Assembly (NCBI RefSeq): GCF_963675165.1
Contig: NC_087378.1
Location: 7,679,273 to 7,743,272 of the forward strand
Length of the DNA stretch: 64,000 nucleotides
Reading direction: 5' to 3'
Source of the DNA: Halichondria panicea
Lineage: Eukaryota > Porifera > Demospongiae > Suberitida > Halichondriidae
Under the pieces are notes generated by a model. That model had not been told where the DNA came from. It saw only the letters and a program-made list of their open reading frames with translations, and did not search any database. The position numbers and the translations under genes are program-made. Positions 20,062 to 64,000 of the stretch are shown piece after piece. Numbering within the stretch: the stretch's first letter is position 1; each line of letters begins with the position of its first letter.

Positions 20062-22661
20062 ATGAAAGCACTATTGCCAACATTAACTATGTCTAGAGAA
20101 GTTCTCCGTCAGATGCACAGATACTGTATAAGAGCTGACTGGATGAGGAGGAAGTCTGGGCTCCTAGTGCAATACCACACAGCAAGTCATCATGGCACCT
20201 CTCAAATACCTCTGCAGACTCTCTCCATCAAATACAGTAGCTCCATGTTTCACACTGGCATCGATACAAGAGGAGCTAAAGGACCGCAAATGCATGAAAC
20301 ACAAACCACGGATGATGCTCACAAACTATTAGTCATACAGCCTGAGTTTAAGTCCGGGCCTGTGGAGAAACCGTACGTACCAGCTGCCTTGAAGCTGGAA
20401 GAAGCTGTGGCCCTGGTAGAGGCAATATCGGGCTGGGAGGTAAAGTATCAGAGAATCGAAGCCATTCGAGAAGTACATAACAAGTATCTTTTTGGTACGG
20501 GGAAGATCAAAGAATTGAAATCAGACGTTAGATCTCTCAGAAAATCTGTTACTGGTGTATTTATCAACACTCCCACACTCACCCCACTTCAACACAGGTG
20601 TCTAGCGGCCATTTTCAAGAGTGAGGTTTTTGATCGATTTGGAATTGTCCTTCGTATCTTCAAGGAGAGGGCACACACGAAAGAAGCCAAGCTGCAAGTT
20701 CAGTTAGCGGAGATACCGTATTTAAGAGGAAAACTCTCCGATGGTACAGAGGGACATCAGCGAGGTGCAGCAGGACGAATGGGCGGTGGTGGGGAAACCA
20801 GTGTCATGGCGATGAAAGCAAGTCTGAGTCGACGACAGAAACGGATAAGAACTGAACTAGATGATATTCGCTCCAGACAAAAGGCTGAGAGAGAGCACAG
20901 AGCCAGGCATACAGGACTCCCTATTGTAGCTGTAGTAGGATACACAAACACGGGCAAGACCACTCTCATTAGGACACTCACGCTGGATGACAGTTTAAGC
21001 CCTGAGGATAAGTTGTTTGCAACCCTGGACAGTACAGTGCATGCTGGCAGGTTGCCGTGTGGTCTCAAGGTACTCTTTGTGGACACCATTGGGTTCATCT
21101 CTGATCTACCCCACGAGTTGGTGGAGTCTTTTGTGTCTACACTGGAGGATGTTATAAACGCAGTGAGTACTCTTGTGTGTTGTGTGTGTGTGTGTGGAGG
21201 GGGGAAGAACTAATATCTGTAATGATTTGGGTCTTTTTCCCATTGGGTAGGTCTTTGTAATCACAGCTCTGCAGCTAACCTTCGTACTATTCTCTATAGT
21301 GGGCAAACAAGTTGTGTTATGCTCAATTTTAGACTTTTTAATCCAATGCTGTTCTCGGCCACTACTAACAGGATGTGCTGGTGAGTGTGACTGACGTGTG
21401 CCACCCTCAGAGCTACGCCCAGAGGGCTAACGTCCTCAAAGTGCTGAGTCAGTTAAACCCCAGACAACGGCTGCTGGACGACATGGTGGAGGTTTTCAAC
21501 AAGGCGGATATGCTGTGAGACTGTGTATGTCAACAGAGTGACTGTACTGATAATATAAGTCCTTCTAGGAATGCCCACTAACTCTGTTACATAAGACATT
21601 ATTATAATTATACGTACCCTTTGATTGTTGTTGTATGGAGAAATTGCATTTTCTGTACTAGGCCTCATACGTATTTACTGTTATACCAGTACTGTTCTTT
21701 TCACGAAATCCTGCATGCATCCATGTACATGTACCCCTCTCCACACCTCCCACACCACACACACTCCACCCACCACACACACACACTCACACACCATACA
21801 CACACCACACAGAACAATGCCAGACAGCTCTCCTGATAGACTACTCATCTCGGCTACCAGTGGGAATGGTATCCCCGAGCTGCAGGAGAGGATCGAGACA
21901 GCTGTTCTCTCGGCCACTCATCAGAAGCGCTGGAGGATCATTGTACCAGCCAACGGAGCTCAGCTAAGGTATGGAGCAGTCACCAGGTGTCTATTATACA
22001 TGTGCGTAGTCATGGTGATTTTCCCGAAATTGGCCTATTTTGATATCTAACTTTGAGTGCTCATAAAATTGAATTAAGATTGTACCTAATATCAGTGGTT
22101 GCTTTTAGATAGCCTTGGTAATTTTTTCGAAATGGGTTTTTGAATTCACTGTACCCTAAGAGATTGACTCGTGCGTGTACACTTGTACTACATATAAACT
22201 CAACTGATTTGTCACATGCAGTGACTATCTGCCCCCCACACACACACACCTGACCCCTCCCTCTTCCCCCCCCACACACACAGCTGGCTTCACCACACTC
22301 CCCCCCCACACACACACACACACCTGACCCCTCCCTCTTCCCCCCACACACACACAGCTGGCTTCACCACACTCCCCCCACACACACACACACACACACC
22401 TGACCCCTCCCTCTTCCCCCCCACACACACAGCTGGCTTCACCACACTCCCCCCACACATACACACACACACACCTGACCCCTCCCTCTTCCCCCCACAC
22501 ACAGCTGGCTTCACCACACTCAGCAGGCCACTGTACTGGACGTCAAGTTACAAGAAGGCCTGGAAGACATGTTTGAGGTGGCGGCTATTCTGTCTGATAC
22601 TGTCGCTAGCAAGTTTAGAGCAAAGTTTGGAAACTCAGTTCAATTACATACACACGGATAA
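20062..22661 (+). CDS. GTPBP6: HflX-family GTPase (GTP-binding protein 6)
   Basis: Ribosome-associated GTPase; the human mitochondrial homologue helps ribosome recycling and assembly. Four exons: 20062 to about 21161, about 21371-21516, about 21814-21969 and 22505-22661. The N-terminus (SREVLRQMHRYCIRADWMRR) is basic and could target mitochondria. The HflX domain has the glycine-rich loop KYLFGTGKIKEL and the coiled stretch SLSRRQKRIRTELDDIRSRQ. G1 is VVGYTNTGKTTL (about residue 290), G3 is FVDTIGFISDLPHELVESF, and G4 is VFNKADML. The last exon (SWLHHTQQATVLDVK) ends HTHG. The intron before the last exon is filled by a minisatellite that repeats its acceptor. The gene converges on the large minus-strand gene. 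Confidence 0.92.
22225..22525 (+). repeat. ~74-bp minisatellite copying the GTPBP6 exon 4 acceptor
   Basis: cagctggcttcaccacactc occurs at 22281, 22355, 22430 and 22502. The last is the true exon start; the other three are intronic copies of the CAG acceptor with the first 17 exon bases. Units are separated by CA tracts and a shared acctgacccctccctcttcc block. Cys-Val-Gly frames on the minus strand are repeat artefacts. Confidence 0.9.
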
Positions 22662-55901: not shown

Positions 55902-56349
55902 ACTCTATCATGAAACTGTTTTCATTATGTCATCTTGTAACTTTCCTGATGTTTGATGATTTATTTGTTCTTGCGTTATGATGTTTTTGATGGATCCTCA
56001 CAAGTTTATTCATACATGGGTGGTATTGTCACACCCAGTATTAAATGGCTACTGATTCTGAATTTTGAAGGCCATTAGCTGAGCTGGAAAGAAAGCATGA
56101 GATCCTCAGGAAACAAGTCAGCTGTCACTATTGGTACCCTTGGTGATGATGAACCTCTACCAGAGCTATCAAAGATATTTCCCAGGCCAAGCTGGCAGCT
56201 ACAAGCTTGTGTAGTGTCAGTACTGATAACAAGTGGCTAAATGCAGTACGTTAGCCTGTGTAGAAAGGGTTAAAATGACCGTGAATCTCATTATAATTGC
56301 ACCATAGCTAGCCTAGGGGGCGGCTAATAATAATTATAATGTGTCGTGC
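55902..56349. other. Spacer between RPS8 and the satellite arm
   Basis: Contains the RPS8 3' end and about 400 bases of unique sequence. A 47-codon frame at 56097-56240 (MRSSGNKSAVTIGTLGDDEP) has no recognisable partner and is not supported as a gene. The 3' border of this spacer is the outer edge of the satellite arm; immediately before it, gtgtcgtgca shows no obvious duplication, since the other edge of the element is outside the window. Confidence 0.4.
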
Positions 56350-57595
56350 AGTCCAGCGAGTCTGGAGAGTCTGGAGAGTCTTAAGAGACCTGCGAGTCTA
56401 GCGAGGAGAGTCTGGAGAGTCTAGCGAGCCCTGAGAGTCTTGAGAGTCCTGAGAGTCTGGATGGAGTCTGGAGAGCCCTGAGAGCCCTGAGAGTCTAGCG
56501 AGTCCTGAGAGACTGGAGAGTTTGGAGAGTCTGGAGAGTCTAGCGAGCCCTGAGAGTCTGGAGAGTCCTGCGAGTCTGGCGAGTCCTGAGAGTCTGGAGT
56601 GTCTGGAGAGTCTAGCGAGCCCTGAGAGTCTTGAGAGTCCTGAGAGTCTGGATGGAGTCTGGAGAGCCCTGAGAGTCTTGAGAGTCCTGAGAGTCTAGCG
56701 AGTCCTGAGAGACTGGAGAGTCTTGAGAGTCCTGAGAGTCTAGCGAGTCCTGAGAGACTGGAGAGTCTGGAGAGTCCTGAGAGTCTGGAGAGTCTAGCGA
56801 GCCCTGAGAGTCTTGAGAGTCCTGAGAGTCTGGAGAGTCTGGAGTCTAGCGAGCCCTGAGAGTCTGGAGAGTCTTGAGAGTCCTGAGAGTCTGGAGAGTG
56901 TAGCGAGCCCTGAGAGTCTTGAGAGTCCTGAGAGTCTAGCGAGTCCTGAGAGACTGGAGAGTCTTGAGAGTCCTGAAAGTCTAGCGAGTCACGAGAGTCT
57001 GGAGAGCCTGGAGAGTCTAGGGAGTCCGGAGAGTCTGACGAGTCCTGAGAGTCTGGCGAGTCCTAAGAGTCCTGAGAGTCTGGCGAGTCCTGAGAGTCTA
57101 GCGAGTCCTGAGAGTCTGGCGAGTCCGGAGAGTCCTGAGAGTCTGGCGAGTCCTGAGAGTCTGGAGAGTCTGGAGTCTAGCGAGCCCTGAGAGTCTGGAG
57201 AGTCTTGAGAGTCCTGAGAGTCTAGCGAGTCCTGAGAGACTGGAGAGTCTGGAGAGTCCTGAGAGTTTGAGAGTCTGGAGAGTCCAGGGAGTCCTGAGAG
57301 TCCAGGGAGTCCTGAGAGTCCTGAGAGTCTGGAGAGTCTAGCGAGTCCGGAGAGTCTGGCGAGTCCTGAGAGTCTGGCGAGTCCGGAGAGTCCGGAGAGT
57401 CCGGAGAATCCGGAGAGTCTGGAGAGTCTAGCGAGTCTGGAGAGTCTAGGGAGTCCGGAGAGTCCTGAGAGTCCGGAGAGTCTAGCGAGTCCTGAGAGTC
57501 CTGAGAGTCTGGTAAGTCCTAGATAATGATGAGAGTCCAGAGAGTTTAGCGTGTTCTGAAAGTCTAGAGTCTGCTATAGTGTTCTCTATAGAGTA
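56350..57595 (+). repeat. Left arm: ~9-bp-based satellite array (inverted relative to 63784-64000)
   Basis: About 1.25 kb built from degenerate nonamers of the form gagagtctg / gagagtcct / gcgagtcct, with longer higher-order blocks (tens of bases) repeated several times. The reverse complement of the same satellite begins at 63784, making the two arrays long inverted terminal arms around the genes between them. Frames such as SPESLESLASPESLE are translations of the satellite, not a protein. The inner edge fades out between 57510 and 57595. Confidence 0.92.
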
Positions 57596-57706
57596 GAGTA
57601 CTATGAATTCTAATCATGATTGTATATCACAAGCACATAATAATTTCATAATAAATGGTTTTGATCAGAAAATATATATTATTATTTTTTTTCAGACATG
57701 TATTTA

Positions 57707-60385
57707 CTATGTACAAAGGTTACAGAGAAAAGAGTTTTCGTTTACAGGTCTCCCACACAAAGTGTGGAGCCACAGATTGCACTTCGAACATTGAGCCCAA
57801 TGAACTCGATCAGATGTACCATATTGCCTGTCATCTTCTTTGTAGCAAACAACACATGCATACATTAATGTCCACTTTAGACAGATTTTCTTTACAGTTA
57901 GCCATAGCAGCAACTGACAGTTTAGCAATCCCTGTATGTCGCGGCCTCTTGTTCTTTATTGACTGGAATCTGATTTGAGTTTCATTAAGCGCATTAGGTG
58001 AAGAACGGCTTTTGATTGGTAAGGTGGGATGCTCTTTCCTTGTTTCATATGCCTTAAGAACATTAATACCGCTTTTGATATGCTCAGTGACACTTCGAAC
58101 TGCATCATTACTGTCAGAAGATGTGAGTAGAGTGTGCAACTGGTGCAAATGATCAAATGCACTTTTCTTCAGCATATCAATTTGACCTCCAGCATTGGAG
58201 AGGATGGTACTTAAGTGTGTAGGATCATTAATGAGGGAAATAGCTTTTTGTCTCGATTCCTCAGTGCTTATTTCAGGAGAAATGTCTGAGCCTGATAAAT
58301 CATCTATAGAATTAGAAATCTCTGACCTATCCGTTTTGTCTGAAGCTGTAGTTAAAGAATGACTTTCAGTGGCTGAGTCTGCATGCACTTGTTGCATTGT
58401 TCGTGGATTTGGCCAGAAAGCATGTAGCATGGATGTGTTTACATATTGTAGTATGTACAACCGAGTCAACACATGAACAATTGTACATGTGGATGCATAC
58501 ATCACATGCTGCGCACCTCAGTTTGCAAGAGAAAGGACAGGACTGATTCTCCAAATGAACAGTGTACATTCTTCCGGAGGTTGTCTGAGAACTTATCTTC
58601 CATTCTTTGTTTGAAATCGATTGGAGATGACAGCCTTCAGAAATCATCTTAGAACTTTCTTTGTGCCTTCGATTTATTTCATTAATACGATAAGTTGTTT
58701 TCCCTTTATGAACTTTTTGTACTTGTTCAAAGGCCTTATTACGAGCAAGCTTCAAAAGAATATGTATAAGTTGATCAAGTCGTCGATTCTTCTTTCCTTC
58801 TAGATACACAATTTTCAGTACTCGATGAAAAGATTCCAAATACATGTTTGTGTTCACAAACTTGCCTATTCTGTAACAGGTTGCCCACTCTTCCACCCTT
58901 GGCGTGTAATTTCTTTGAAAGTAAGAGCAAAATTGTGGGTGACAATTTGATAAATTTCTGCAACAAACTTCGGAATTTGTCAGGTTGCAGTTCTGTCAGT
59001 AAAGTTCTCAAATGGTGATATACGTCAATTCGATTTTCATTGAGAGGAATACGCTCCTTAAGAGCTTTTCTCCAAGCACGATCTACGTGCCAGGCACACA
59101 GCAGTTTTGTGGTGTTGATACTGCTGTACGCAGCTGTCCAAGCACTCCAGTACTGCGTCGCATCATCTGACATGAACACTTGTGTGGAAAGGGGACCAGT
59201 TCTTTTCCTCAATTCTAGGAAAAAATAGGCCAGCATACAAGTGTCTTCTCGTGTAGTTATAGCCCACGCAACTGGAATTCCTTCCCCAAAATCGTCAACT
59301 ACCATAACAGTTACCAGCAGGTATTCGTAATAATTAGTTGAATGGGTGGCATCTACACAAATTACATTTCCTCCAAAAGCTTTCATCATCTCGAGCTGAA
59401 ACTGGGTTTGAAGTGCCAACAAAAAATCGTTGTCTTTCACTCCTTCTCTTTCACTAGACACCCCTTGCGGTTTGAAAGCAATAACTGGACAAAATTCCAT
59501 GCTTTTCAGCTCTTCGACCCATGCAGCAACACTTGTGTAATCGTTTGAGTGCTTTTGTACTCCATCCACATTGCACACTCTTTTGATATTCTGGATATCT
59601 TTTTTTGTGCTATGATGACACCGTTTCAGGCCACCTTCATCGACACTGTCTCTAATGTCATCTAGAATTCGATCTATCGTCACCCCTTGCAACAGTTTGT
59701 TGAATACAGCTAGCTTGAAGTCCTTAGGGAGTCGTAAATGCATTACATCTTCTTCTGGAGTGTGGCCATAATGCGTGGAACAAAAGTTAACCAGCACATT
59801 TCCTCCTGTGTGCTGACTTACAATTAGGTGAGCTGTACAGTAGACACCTAATTTTTCCGAGCCCTGCAACTTCGAATTTCTGAGGCCTTTTGTGGTTGAT
59901 CTAGATTTTCCTGATCTGTTACAATAGTAGTACCAAGTACGTACTCCACAGCGGACACGGGATCCACACGGCTGCACATACTGTGTGCAGGTTCGAGTTT
60001 CTTCACCCTCCTTCCATCTTAAAAACTCTGAAAAGCCAGAAAACTCATGTTTCTCTGTATAAACAGTTGTTTCGTGAGCTTGTGTTAGATGTTGGATTAA
60101 CTCTTGTACGAAACGAAATCTGTAAGAAAGAAACTAATAATAATGTGGAAGTTGCAGTTGCATGATCTGTGTAATCATGTGCCATTAAGTATTCAATCGA
60201 TCTAACCTGGAGTCACAAGTAATACAGCAGATATATCCAATTTCTGATGTTTCTTGTGAAGAGATTTCTTGGGTCAGATCTAGACTCTTCCCTAGAGCCT
60301 TTTCTCTGTGTTGCCTTACATGTCGAGCTAGACTACTGCTGTGTGCATAACTGCTTGAGCAAGACTTGCAAATATAGAGCGACAT
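57707..60385 (-). CDS. MULE transposase with C2H2, SWIM and PHD-like modules (frame-disturbed)
   Basis: DDE transposase of the Mutator-like superfamily, a plain DNA transposon. The start at 60385 gives a C2H2 finger: YICKSCSSSYAHSSSLARHV with RQH. After a short intron (donor near 60211, acceptor near 60120) comes FRFVQELIQHLTQAHET and a DNA-binding-like region (CGSRVRCGVRTWYYYCNRSG). The catalytic core has the first Asp in VICVDATHSTNYYEY, the second in VFMSDDATQYWSAWT followed by LLCAWHVDRAWRKAL, and the Glu expected in NTNMYLESFHRVLK. A SWIM zinc motif (CSCVDSVVHTTICKHIH) lies near 58450, and a C-terminal PHD-like finger (CVVCYKEDD, HWAQCSKCNLWLHTLC, FLCNLC) at 57860-57710. The modules fall in different frames: changes occur between the second Asp and the Glu (about 58900-58970), after the SWIM motif, and before the PHD-like finger. 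The first is not explained by any reasonable intron, so this copy is probably defective or mis-assembled. Confidence 0.78.
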
Positions 60386-60597
60386 TGAGCCAAATCCAGA
60401 ATATTATACACAGAGCAAACTATGATTTTGTTGAGACTTCTCCCGCTTGTTCAGGCTATTATAGACTGTAATTATGTACAGCACATGCGCGTAATCATCA
60501 ATTAAGTATTAATTTCGCTGCGAGTACCTAATTGTTGTTCCAAAGAAGAACCAGTTCGAAGAACAAGCTCATCATTGTATCATTGTGCCATATAACC
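60386..60597. promoter_or_regulatory. Divergent spacer of the transposon
   Basis: 212 bases between the transposase and ATPase start codons; it must hold both promoters. No sharp TATA box or palindrome was recognised. Confidence 0.45.
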
Positions 60598-63500
60598 ATG
60601 TGTGCATCACGAGAGACTGATGGAGACAGCAGTAGTATTTTCGGGGATTCTAATTCCACAAGCTCACAGGTGAGCATGCAGAGCTCACATTTCATTGCAC
60701 ATATTAATTGTTGAAGCCACATGCAGTTTGAGAAAATTCAGTTTAATTATTGTGCTGCATGTATATTCTTTCAGGATTCTGGAAAGGGAGAATTTTTTAT
60801 TAATTGGGAACTCGGAACTGCTGGGAAATCAGCAAAAGGAGAAGATAAGGCCATGTGTGATTTTGCAATCAGGCTGAAGACACTAGTGGAAGCGAGAGAA
60901 TTGACTGGGTTTTACTGTGAAGTGAAACGCGAAATGGATGGTGTTAGCAGGTACATCTAACCCTCCCTCTAACTATATACAGTTAATTACAGCACATGTG
61001 ACACACCTTGTAGCTTGTTAAGTGCATGGGTGTGCAATACCTCAATCTGTATAATATACTGCATACATCTTGTATGTATACATACTTTATCTTTGAGGGA
61101 TTTGTATAATTATAGCTGGTCAACTGCATGGGTATTTCCATTTTCCATTATAGTGCAATAAAAATTATTAAAACATACTTTCCACTGACTTATAGCTCAG
61201 CCATGTGCCTATAAATGATATTAAAAATGTAGAGTTTGGAACCCACAAATAAGTATATAGTTGTGGTTCCAACAATAGGCTGAAGTTGTGACTGTGGGAT
61301 ATCTGATATCACCAGAGCATAGTTTTCTCACATCATTTTTCTACTGTCATGTGTGCAGAAAAATATTATTGTTTTAGAGCACATGCAGGACGTGCTACCA
61401 ATGCAATATGCTACTAAACTGATCATTTGTTTCAAACATGCAGGAGATGTTTCTTCACAAGTGACTCTGCAAACCAGAAAGTAAAGTTCATCAGCCAGCT
61501 GAACAAGTCTTTTGGGAGCGGTGGTGGATTCACTTGTGCTTTTTCAGACTCCGAACTCACCAGATTTCTCCAGTTTCTCAAACGAGAGCATGCTTCGGAT
61601 ATTAAGATCTCCAAGGGAACCACCGTTATAGGATGCCAGCCTGGTAGCGATGTATGGGTGTTTGGTGATGACATCCATATCAAGTCTAACGGAGAGTGCA
61701 TATCTGCAACGGAAAGTCCCTATGTGTGGTCACCCAATTGCATAATGGCACAGTGTGACAAAGTCAGCTTCAATGAGCTTGTGCCGAAACTTTCCATCCA
61801 AAGCAGCTCAATGGAACCTTTGAAGGATCTCCTCGACGGCCTACAGATAGCCACCAAGCACAATTATCCGCGTGCTCTCCTTGTTCTTGGTGGAACCATA
61901 ATGTCTTGTCACTACACCCACATTGCTGCGAAGTATGGAGGATTTCCAATTGTGCTTGCTGTCGGACCAACTGAGACTGGCAAGTCAACTGCTCTAAAGG
62001 CTGCCCTGAGTATTTTTGGGATGGCCAAAGATGCCTTTTACGTTGAAGGTTCCAATGCTTATTTTATGGAAAGAAGTGCCCTCTCGTGTATGCCATATGG
62101 TATTGATGAGGCCACTGCACACAGCAAGCAGTTGGATGTTGTCAAGCTCATTGTCGACCTTCATGGAGCGGCTAAAACAGCCAATTTGCGTCGTGGTGCG
62201 TTTCTTCCACTGTCTGTACCTGTCATAGCAACCAATGACAAATTGAAGGATGATCCAAGGTGTGTACATAATTAGAATGTTATACACCACAATTTTCATA
62301 TAATTATATACAGCTATTTATACCTGCACTTTAAACTTTAATCACAGAGTGAAGAGCAGATGTGTGGAAATTTCCTTCCGAAGGCCAAAAGTTGGTCCCT
62401 CTACCGTTGAGGAAAGAAAGTCGAGACGTGACTTAGAGAGTTCAATCATTAACGGAACGCCTTCTGGCATTCTTCACTGGGTGATTTCTCTAAGACAAGA
62501 CCTCGAAAAAGATGGAGAGGCAGAGGTGGAGAGGATTTTGCAGCAGATCCTTCAGCTGCCTCAGTTTAGTGAACAACCCAGACTAGCGCAAAGCTGGGCT
62601 CTTATTCTTTACTTTACATTCAAGGTAAGTTTATTAATTAGTGCGCATTTGTTGATTGTTATTGAACCATACATGAAATCAAGATGGTACGCGCCTGTGG
62701 GAAGGATGAGCTGGAGAATGAAATAATGGCGTGTGTAACTCTAAATAGCACTGCAACTGAGGAAGGTACTGACAAAACTAGTTCTCTTGAAAGTGTTGTG
62801 ACTGACACAGTCAGGGAAGTGCTTGAGTACTGCAATGGAAAAGTCATAAGACAGGTAATAATACTGTTAGTAATTGAGTGTGCTGTGGTGATACCTAATT
62901 CTGGTTTCTGTTTACTTAATTAAAGGTGTTTCTAACCACTCATATTGGTGCTCTGAATGGCTTGCACTCTTACATAATAATATGCATACACTGTAACATA
63001 CATATATATATACAGGTACTCACCTTTGTCAGAACAAGGTTGATGGTAAGCAACCAAGAAGTTGTGGCAATCCATCTTTCTCACAACGGGCTGAAATTTA
63101 CTCATTCCCTTGATGAAATTAGAAATGCTGTCGACCAACTTGAGTGGGGGAAAGGCACGGACAGCAAAGATTTCCTGAATCCTACCAAACATAGTGGGAC
63201 GTTAATAAATAGGAAAACAAGTGATCGCGTAAGAGCTGCCAACATCTTTCTTAACAAACTTCCTAAAAATCTTCACGATGTACTTAGAAGGGGTAAGTTT
63301 GTCTTTACCTATTTTGTTTATAGTATCAGTGTCACAGAATAAACATTGTGTACACACGCAGTGACCGACCCTGAGACTCCATTGGCTGAAGTAATTAAGT
63401 GTGGGCTGGAAGTGGCTGAAAAAACTCCATGCAGTGAGGAAGAGGAAAACAGTGGGCCAGGCTTAACTACTGAAACAGAAGCTGTCGATGGGGACAAGAA

Positions 63501-63651
63501 ACATGCTACTGTAACAACATCACTGACTGAAACAGACGGTACATCTACTGATGGATCTGTCGATGATGGGGACAAGAAACGTGCTACAAGATCCTCGACT
63601 ATTGTGCCTCCTTTTTCCAAAAGACTTTGCAAGGGGAACAATATTTACTAA
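60598..63651 (+). CDS. Transposon-borne P-loop ATPase, DUF927/SF3-helicase-like, seven exons
   Basis: Exons: 60598-60669, 60775-60950, 61444-62259, 62348-62624, 62684-62854, 63015-63292, 63362-63651. All junctions keep frame with GT/AG ends, giving about 690 residues without an internal stop. Exon 3 has an N-terminal part (FSDSELTRFLQFLKREHASD, GCQPGSDVWVFGDDIHI) and then an ATPase core: Walker A VLAVGPTETGKSTALK, a Walker B-like SCMPYGIDEAT, and a sensor-like VPVIATNDKL. Exon 4 adds CVEISFRRPK. The layout (β-rich front, GPTETGKS loop, acidic I-D-E-A strand, T-N sensor) recalls DUF927 and related SF3-type helicases of phages and mobile elements; this assignment is by eye and uncertain. The C-terminal exon is acidic then basic, with a repeated VDGDKKHAT / DDGDKKRAT unit and RSSTIVPPFSKRL, possibly a nuclear signal. 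Intact, while its transposase partner is not. Confidence 0.7.
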
Positions 63652-63783
63652 CAATACTGGTTGAATATTATTCAGTGCGCTAAATTATATATAAGTGCAC
63701 GAAATGTGTTGTTTTGTTATAATCAATCTGTTGTCGTTACGTTCTACCATGCATGCATTGAATTGACAAATTTAATTATAAGA

Positions 63784-64000
63784 CTAACTCGACTCAGCAG
63801 ACTCGCTAGACTCTCCAGACTCTCCGGACTCTCCGGACTCTCCAGACTCTCCGGACTCTCCAGACTCTCCAGACTCTCAGGACTCTCCAGACTCTCCGGA
63901 CTCACTAGACTCTCCAGACTCTCAGGACTCTCGGGACTCTCGGGACTCTCAGGACTCGCTAGACTCTCCGGACTATAGCTAGACTCGCAGGACTCTCCAG
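63784..64000 (-). repeat. Right arm: inverted satellite array, runs off the window
   Basis: Starts at actcgactcagcagactcgc and continues as agactctcc / ggactctcc / ggactctca nonamers, the reverse complement of the left-arm satellite. At least 217 bases; the outer end lies beyond 64000. Confidence 0.9.

Follow-up and report, generated by a model that had tools for sequence, protein, structure and literature searches.

A 64,000-nucleotide stretch of the genome of the demosponge Halichondria panicea (hereafter the window: contig C2, NC_087378.1, positions 7679273-7743272) contains at its right-hand end, and somewhat beyond it, a transposon in which two genes lie head to head between long inverted arrays of a short tandem repeat. 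One gene, on the minus strand, encodes the transposase of a Mutator-like element (MULE), the other, on the plus strand, a P-loop ATPase. The features of this copy, and the full copies found in the searched genome (131,455,214 bases in 39 contigs, designated by C and a number), are collected in Table 1, where, as in the text, positions past the window end at 64000 are window-equivalent, the same numbering being continued.

Table 1. Features of the window copy (window coordinates) and full copies of its family in the genome
Feature	Position	Strand	Remark
Left copy of target duplication, 9 bp, GTACTGATA	56220..56228	.	read directly
Left unique terminal inverted repeat, 122 bp, begins ACAAGTGGCTAAATGCAG	56229..56350	+	
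Left foldback arm, tandem nonamers, one orientation	56358..57572	+	
MULE transposase, main exon, DDE region	57710..60119	-	frame interrupted in window copy
MULE transposase, first exon, C2H2-like zinc finger by eye	60207..60385	-	boundaries inferred from splice signals
ATPase exon 1	60598..60669	+	model
ATPase exon 2	60775..60950	+	model
ATPase exon 3, N-terminal region, Walker A GPTETGKST, Walker B-like PYGIDE, sensor-1-like VIATN	61444..62259	+	model
ATPase exon 4	62348..62624	+	model; homology to C12 family
ATPase exon 5	62684..62854	+	model
ATPase exon 6	63016..63292	+	model
ATPase exon 7, acidic tail, stop	63362..63651	+	model
Right foldback arm, beginning	63791..64000	-	arm continues to window-equivalent 64922
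Full element (C2a)	C2:973549-982509		9-bp target duplication
Full element (window's)	C2:7735501-7744333		9-bp target duplication
Full element	C7:114889-122521		9-bp target duplication
Full element	C7:2254075-2263316		target duplication looked for, none found
Full element	C8:3134831-3143868		9-bp target duplication
Full element	C9:2860408-2874059		9-bp target duplication
Full element	C10:5842257-5851048		8-bp target duplication

A preliminary description of the locus had drawn the element from 56350 to 64000. Its true ends lie outside that interval: the sequence common to the copies starts at ACAAGTGGCTAAATG, at position 56229, and stops at window-equivalent 65061, 1061 bases past the window, which gives a complete element of 8833 base pairs (bp). 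The sequence GTACTGATA flanks the window copy on both sides, its right-hand instance occupying window-equivalent 65062-65070, beyond the window. Each end is composed of a unique inverted repeat of 122-133 bp, outermost, followed by about 1.2 kb of nonamers in one orientation. The left and right terminal repeats are identical at 120 of 133 aligned positions, with zero mismatches in the first 75.

The inverted nonamer arrays noticed earlier around the two genes were confirmed by motif counts and periodicity. The left arm contains 107 instances of GAGTC and none of GACTC, the right arm none of the former and 105 of the latter, and self-match of the left arm at period 9 reaches 0.71, whereas 200 shuffles have a mean of 0.27 and a maximum of 0.311. 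Over the five copies fetched whole, the commonest units are GAGTCTGGA and GAGTCCTGA, and 1065 neighbouring units within the arms are 9 bp apart, the next class being 18 bp, with 69 cases. A three-unit 27-mer, searched with up to 3 mismatches, matched the genome 215 times in the forward and 224 times in the reverse orientation, while the reversed pattern, used as a control, matched in neither; among these 439 matches, those listed all fall within the seven full copies. All five whole copies feature long inverted ends made of short tandem repeats, as in Foldback-type elements; in the C7:114889 and C9 copies, the arms were seen as matches to the 27-mer pattern near both ends.

Identification of the first gene as a MULE transposase was upheld by Pfam: the MULE domain PF10551 is found with an expectation value (E) of 1.4e-11 (45.1 bits) in the window copy and of 2.7e-11 (44.2 bits) in an uninterrupted 809-codon frame of the same family, the cut-off being 27.6. 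A CxC..CxH SWIM-like motif and a cysteine-rich PHD-like tail, both unmatched by Pfam, were recognized by eye in the main exon. Membership in the Phantom group was considered and dropped, FLYWCH being absent among the Pfam matches; the C2H2-like first exon was not scanned on its own. The ATPase gene, modelled from splice signals without transcript evidence, comprises 7 exons and 692 codons and has a Walker A motif. We take GPTETGKST to be this motif, PYGIDE or DDP to be Walker B-like and VIATN to be sensor-1-like; a QVLTFVR stretch in exon 6 is found, by eye, also in one of the KDZ-linked homologues described below.

Copies were searched genome-wide with a 28-base terminal pattern, allowing up to 3 mismatches: 17 places were found, and none with the reversed control. 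The 28 bp occur without mismatch at all 14 ends of seven full elements. As the preliminary description had anticipated, the arrangement recurs elsewhere: all seven copies with both ends carry the two genes, head to head between inverted nonamer arms, several of them in damaged form. The seven best ATPase matches (94-100% over the matched part) are exactly these seven elements, and MULE pieces are present in all seven. The element is, in other words, a discrete unit with terminal inverted repeats. Target duplications, which had been predicted at 8 to 11 bases, were found in six copies (9 bp in five, 8 bp in one), and none was found in the remaining one. Terminal inverted repeats and duplication size are those expected of MULEs (8-11 bp), and the structure speaks strongly for transposition from the terminal repeats by a MULE enzyme. 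Two smaller sites were also observed, a 67-bp end-to-end minimal derivative at C16:1621032-1621098, having the 8-bp repeat GAAAATGA on both flanks, and a lone element end with nonamers at C12:3232493.

Two copies, C2a (C2:978544-980970) and C8 (C8:3136306-3138732), have an unbroken transposase frame of 809 codons. Relative to this frame, that of the window copy is broken by three indels, two of which are common to the C10 and C7:2254075 copies; the translated pieces of the C9 copy break at the same places, and the C7:114889 copy is without the middle part. Three of the four copies sharing this damage have target duplications, all different, most likely because they moved after the damage had occurred, using transposase made elsewhere. 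The ATPase coding sequence, as modelled, is open over 2079 bases in the window, C2a and C8 copies. The C7:2254075 copy is identical to the window's in exons 1-6 (exon 7 fell outside the slice compared), as is the C9 copy in exon 3, the one compared (100%). The ATPase has been kept unchanged in the window copy (fully) and in C7:2254075 (exons 1-6) despite the transposase damage that they share. Between the window copy and C2a, 8 of 2079 positions differ in the ATPase exons and 13 of 1323 in introns and intergenic sequence (Fisher 0.04), and the variable ATPase codons of three copies include 6 replacement and 4 silent changes, two of five copies having been dropped from the alignment for a missing anchor; since the copies are too alike, these figures are not used as proof of selection within the family.

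A second family (family C, the window's being family A) is represented by an element of 11848 bp at C12:1777432-1789279. It features an ATPase, 39% identical to that of family A, head to head with a MULE transposase (a frame of 799 codons) that is 42% identical over the matched part and 38% over 765 codons. The arms are made of a unit of roughly 10 bp, in one arm GTGTCTGCGAGTGTTCACTG, in the other the reverse complement of units of this kind; outside the arrays lie terminal inverted repeats, ACTAACCRTTAGAAACAGTGAAAAACC, found at one further place, on C15, with 3 mismatches, and a 9-bp target duplication, TTCTTTTTG. The layout is conserved between the two families while the satellite differs. 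Mismatch at third codon positions between families A and C is 0.65 and 0.66 for the two proteins (Fisher 2e-8 and 1e-21), a pattern that fits selection on both, with the caveat that alignment on the proteins itself leans toward it.

By eye, one substitution and one inserted base separate the nonamer GAGTCTGGA (window 56358-57572) from the C12 decamer GTGTCTGCGA (C12:1777637-1779393), and a relationship between the two satellites is possible. Contig C17 has, at C17:4111807, a piece of ATPase 97-99% like that of C12, and no MULE-clade or CxC5 locus in the list. Two older, damaged pairs were also identified, one at C15:2523406-2524885 (MULE, with stops) and C15:2531252-2531847 (ATPase), the other, head to head, at C10:4096306 (MULE) and C10:4093889 (ATPase), both with stops. 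The two ATPases are 68% alike over 149 residues; arms were not established at either pair, the outer sides being only partly covered. Gypsy-like gag-pol frames can be seen by eye between the two genes of the C15 pair (C15:2524900-2531300).

ATPase homologues are not confined to MULEs. At 11 loci they lie head to head with genes of the CxC5 type, which are KDZ-associated. In the C13 family (family D; C13:4141500-4151499), the partner of an ATPase homologue (30%) matches CxC5 (PF18718, 1.4e-11) and, below cut-off, KDZ (3e-4); the family has four copies, 96-98% alike, and in three of these the CxC5 exon is adjacent. Family E includes eight copies, each head to head with a CxC5-like exon, and the only locus of this family that was read, C8:4856500-4866499, matches KDZ at 3.6e-5, again below cut-off; the sequence common to two of its copies extends over about 9 kb and has a 99-103-bp tandem array at one side. 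In the two loci of family F, the ATPase and the CxC5 gene are on one strand, about 5 kb apart. Satellite arms were not established in the KDZ-linked families, nor were element ends and target duplications fixed in families D and E.

For a genome-wide tally, the lists of ATPase, MULE-clade and CxC5/KDZ loci were merged by hand, with a proximity threshold of 8 kb and without four weak or partial MULE matches (C14:1723029, C8:2287124, C1:10397114 and C9:1636387); the grouping into about 11 families is our own, and copies of the same family are not independent, binomial values being without meaning for them. Within this set, which has 31 MULE-clade or CxC5/KDZ loci, 24 of 32 ATPase loci lie no more than 8 kb from one of these, D3 being counted among the 24 by its nearness to the gene of a neighbouring copy. 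About 0.4% is expected per locus, and chance juxtaposition was dropped as an explanation. Seen from the other side, an ATPase is found within 8 kb at 10 of 14 MULE-clade and 13 of 17 CxC5 loci. The 59 KDZ matches from the Pfam genome search lie, by eye, away from ATPase loci, indicating that ordinary KDZ elements in this genome are without the ATPase. The preliminary description had regarded the ATPase as a functional part of a MULE element: it is indeed constant in the family, but the gene belongs to more than MULEs, its homologues also being partners of CxC5/KDZ genes.

The same description had likened the ATPase to superfamily 3 (SF3) helicases or to DUF927 proteins. The Pfam lists of the ATPase contain no SF3 model. 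DUF927 is favoured. It was matched in three of six homologue loci (window 0.0061, C12 0.064, C1:5241746 1.8e-4), always below cut-off (best score 21.7 bits, against 22.6) and accompanied by other generic AAA models, similarly weak; the Pfam scan did not find it in the C13, C8 and C1:4.68 Mb ATPase pieces. A whole-genome DUF927 search gave one match, of 16.4 bits (E 0.32), corresponding to the C15 homologue. The P-loop of the C13 homologue, GNVSLGKT, fits the GxxxxGK[ST] consensus. DUF927 is reported among helicases fused to mobile-element primases (PMC5862659).

Closer relatives were found by tblastn against 72,556 plasmid records. The C1:5241746 homologue matches a Gloeothece plasmid protein at 2e-7 over 98% of its length, and the family C ATPase matches the same protein at 2e-5; the window exon matches a Nostoc plasmid at 3e-5, 11 of the 13 records in its search being at E 3 to 5 and taken as chance. 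The Gloeothece protein (NC_014504.1 CYAN7822_RS34150) consists of a Prim-Pol domain (PF09250, 1.3e-6) and of the domain homologous to the ATPase, while in the Nostoc protein Toprim alone is matched, weakly. Three further relatives are found in two contigs of cyanobacterial metagenome-assembled genomes and in one IMG/VR contig, one of them with Prim-Pol just over cut-off; of the five relatives, bacterial or viral, three match DUF927 weakly (0.0047, 0.096 and 0.1). Profile-profile comparison of three eukaryotic with two cyanobacterial sequences gave a probability of 99.0 (E 5e-18, for one comparison) over 244 columns, the maximum for 40 column-shuffled control profiles being 1.8%. The KDZ-linked ATPase pair, whose identity to the other ATPases is 24-32% in most comparisons, also matches the profile (95.7%). 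In PHROGs, the window exon was assigned to DNA primase/helicase (1.9e-4), and four of five sequences weakly to a DNA primase family (0.004-0.35). No homologue was found in phages searched at E up to 10, nor in viral contigs searched with the eukaryotic profile; a first bacterial profile, whose patterns fell outside the ATPase core, gave no match in viral and genome contigs.

Alignment has thus shown homologues of the ATPase to match the helicase part of plasmid primase-helicases over the whole domain, and we conclude from these similarities that the ATPase is a predicted replication-type helicase of mobile elements, DUF927-like. The same evidence bears on a different proposal, namely that the second protein is a regulator or anti-silencing factor, comparable to the Vandal MuDR protein or to fungal TET/JBP, and that the ATPase remodels chromatin or protein complexes rather than element DNA. 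Partner genes shared by superfamilies and a Vandal protein countering silencing are described in PMC12730594, and a head-to-head layout fits shared regulation. However, among the outside relatives found, those closest to the ATPase are the helicase portions of plasmid primase-helicases, with similarity extending over nearly all of the exon, and the Pfam lists contain no chromatin ATPase model; we consider a regulatory function unlikely.

The general view is that cut-and-paste transposons rely on the host for unwinding and repair. The reading that we prefer, with a probability of about 0.57, is that of a two-gene foldback MULE, in which the ATPase is a replication-type helicase acting as partner of the transposase and exchanged between the MULE and KDZ superfamilies. 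Cleavage by the transposase would take place at the unique terminal repeats, and the repeat arms may hold or assist the enzyme. The ATPase would form an AAA+-type ring, able to unwind or remodel the DNA of the element; its likeliest tasks would be to open the arms or to drive DNA synthesis after excision or during insertion, with the outcome that the element is re-copied and not merely moved. What suggests such a helicase function, at the arms or in post-cleavage synthesis, is homology, association and the analogy with the Rep helicases of pathogenicity islands, which recognise iterons (PMC7581432). The ATPase would be a standing partner of both superfamilies, and not a chance passenger.

A bolder form of this reading, speculative and in our opinion improbable, is that two superfamilies acquired, from a plasmid replicon, its helicase half and employ it as a portable replication factor: the short repeats of the arms would act like iterons, where the helicase loads, opens the element and recruits host polymerases, the element being copied during transposition, and the satellite could change provided that repeat arms remain.

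Various observations weigh against a helicase partner. No primase domain was found in the element, and the match of the window exon to the Gloeothece protein is as weak as E 0.5. In Gloeothece and Nostoc, among the five bacterial or viral relatives, and in L063, the P-loop lysine is preceded by a residue other than glycine. DUF927 falls short of its cut-off throughout; NCBIfam gave only generic ATPases, the ATPase search of solved structures only chance-level rows, and structure predictions were unusable, with a mean predicted local distance difference test score of 36.3 for exon 3 alone and 36.4 for exon 3 with three relatives. Binding of the arm repeats by the transposase itself, as reported for Galileo, would explain the arms without an ATPase. 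Nor do the two genes always go together: they do so in the seven full copies, and the pair recurs in family C and in the two older damaged loci, but 4 of the 14 wider MULE-clade loci are without an ATPase match within 8 kb. Two of these MULE relatives, C2:2779534-2781249 and C1:8642497-8644212 (45%), which are 99.8% alike over 3.9 kb, have no ATPase match in the 5 kb fetched; instead, each is preceded, on its own strand, by a gene for a UCH/USP-type, deubiquitinase-like protease (PF00443 2.2e-6 in the C2 copy, the one scanned). No ATPase was found in the 5 kb upstream of C1:5152631, or near C11:3422815 by the genome searches. Transposases lacking the ATPase, which the preliminary description had named as a refuting observation, occur in the wider clade, one level above the family itself. 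Conversely, 8 of the 32 ATPase loci are more than 8 kb from any listed MULE-clade or CxC5/KDZ locus. Several of these have stops inside the match, though some of the stops may represent introns. The C1:5241746 homologue, whose exon 3 is open to the point where the window-copy exon ends and keeps GESSTGKT, may be a stand-alone working gene. Within the family itself, the ATPase is damaged in two of the seven copies, by a 91-base deletion in exon 3 (C10) and by a frame change and a stop in the exon at C7:119000.

The unpaired transposases, the two damaged ATPases and the open, unpaired C1:5241746 homologue are also what would be expected of a passenger, captured once and carried without a role, as in Pack-MULEs. 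Pack-MULEs are recognized by a fragment of an identifiable host gene, and no host parent was identified for the ATPase. Its presence in every full copy, the codon pattern between families A and C and the pairing of homologues with two transposase groups in the same layout all argue against a mere passenger, which is quite improbable.

Known systems resemble the element in some respects and differ from it in others. Tm1 of root-knot nematodes (PMC3169594) shares a MULE transposase, inverted ends mostly made of short tandem repeats (13 to 15 bp) and 9-bp target duplications; in contrast, its 496-residue transposase has a FLYWCH finger, not detected here, and the words ATPase and helicase do not occur in the text, while the element described here has a second gene. 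MuTAnT is listed as a further foldback MULE. Tandem repeats inside terminal inverted repeats are found in Galileo, where they hold extra transposase binding sites, and in Tetris (PMC4079207), which has no known transposase; no ATPase partner was found in what could be seen of that paper. Staphylococcal chromosome cassettes encode Cch, a mobile-element helicase with DUF927, related to the Rep helicase of pathogenicity islands (PMC7581432), but Cch is bacterial, works with cassette recombinases and not with a DDE transposase, and has the domain whose cut-off is unreached here. Other DDE transposons carry an extra enzyme, such as the RecQ helicase of KolobokH among the Kolobok lineages (PMC9587614), or the TET/JBP proteins common to several superfamilies of fungal transposons (PMC12730594); these are different enzymes, none of the helicase type of the ATPase, as far as the accessible texts go. 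Phantom and FB/NOF are animal MULEs, some with foldback-like ends (PMC3169594).

The FLYWCH finger of Phantom and FB/NOF was not found in the element described here. We know of no second gene of this ATPase kind in either group. In cyanobacterial plasmid primase-helicases, the homologous domain, of about 250 residues, is fused to Prim-Pol, while here it is encoded by a separate gene of seven modelled exons. KDZ transposons with CxC5 are similar in having ATPase homologues head to head with CxC5-like genes, in the same genome, but belong to another transposase group, where ends and foldback arms were not established. Neither ATPase nor helicase occurs as a word in the main text of a 2026 survey covering 322 types of arthropod MULE. 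That this is an already catalogued MULE family with a known second gene, for example in Repbase, is distinctly unlikely: among the matches listed, the literature search, whose scope left out Repbase and most subscription journals, found no MULE or KDZ element with such an ATPase. Foldback MULEs are already known; a helicase-type partner in a MULE or KDZ element would, by the literature searched, be new.

A helicase-like protein that accompanies the transposase in every full copy, is conserved from one family to the other and occurs next to two transposase groups would mean that some transposons bring their own DNA-processing engine. It would also offer a possible reason for the long arrays of short repeats in foldback elements, as loading or binding sites.

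Additional features were noticed around unpaired ATPase loci and elsewhere. Upstream of the C1:5241746 homologue lies a P-element-like transposase frame (C1:5245553-5246581; TNP-like RNase H, 3e-24), along with further transposase-like frames, and a helicase-like frame can be seen by eye upstream of the ATPase locus at C10:4195881. At C1:4.68 Mb, a 2-kb array of the 17-bp unit GTTCCATGGTTCCTACT (C1:4676656-4678677) precedes the first ATPase-like exon match by about 700 bp; no inverted partner array was found downstream, and the locus was not counted as an element. Within the window, far from the transposon, a 75-bp CA-rich unit is repeated in tandem, in 3.8 copies, at 22237-22521.

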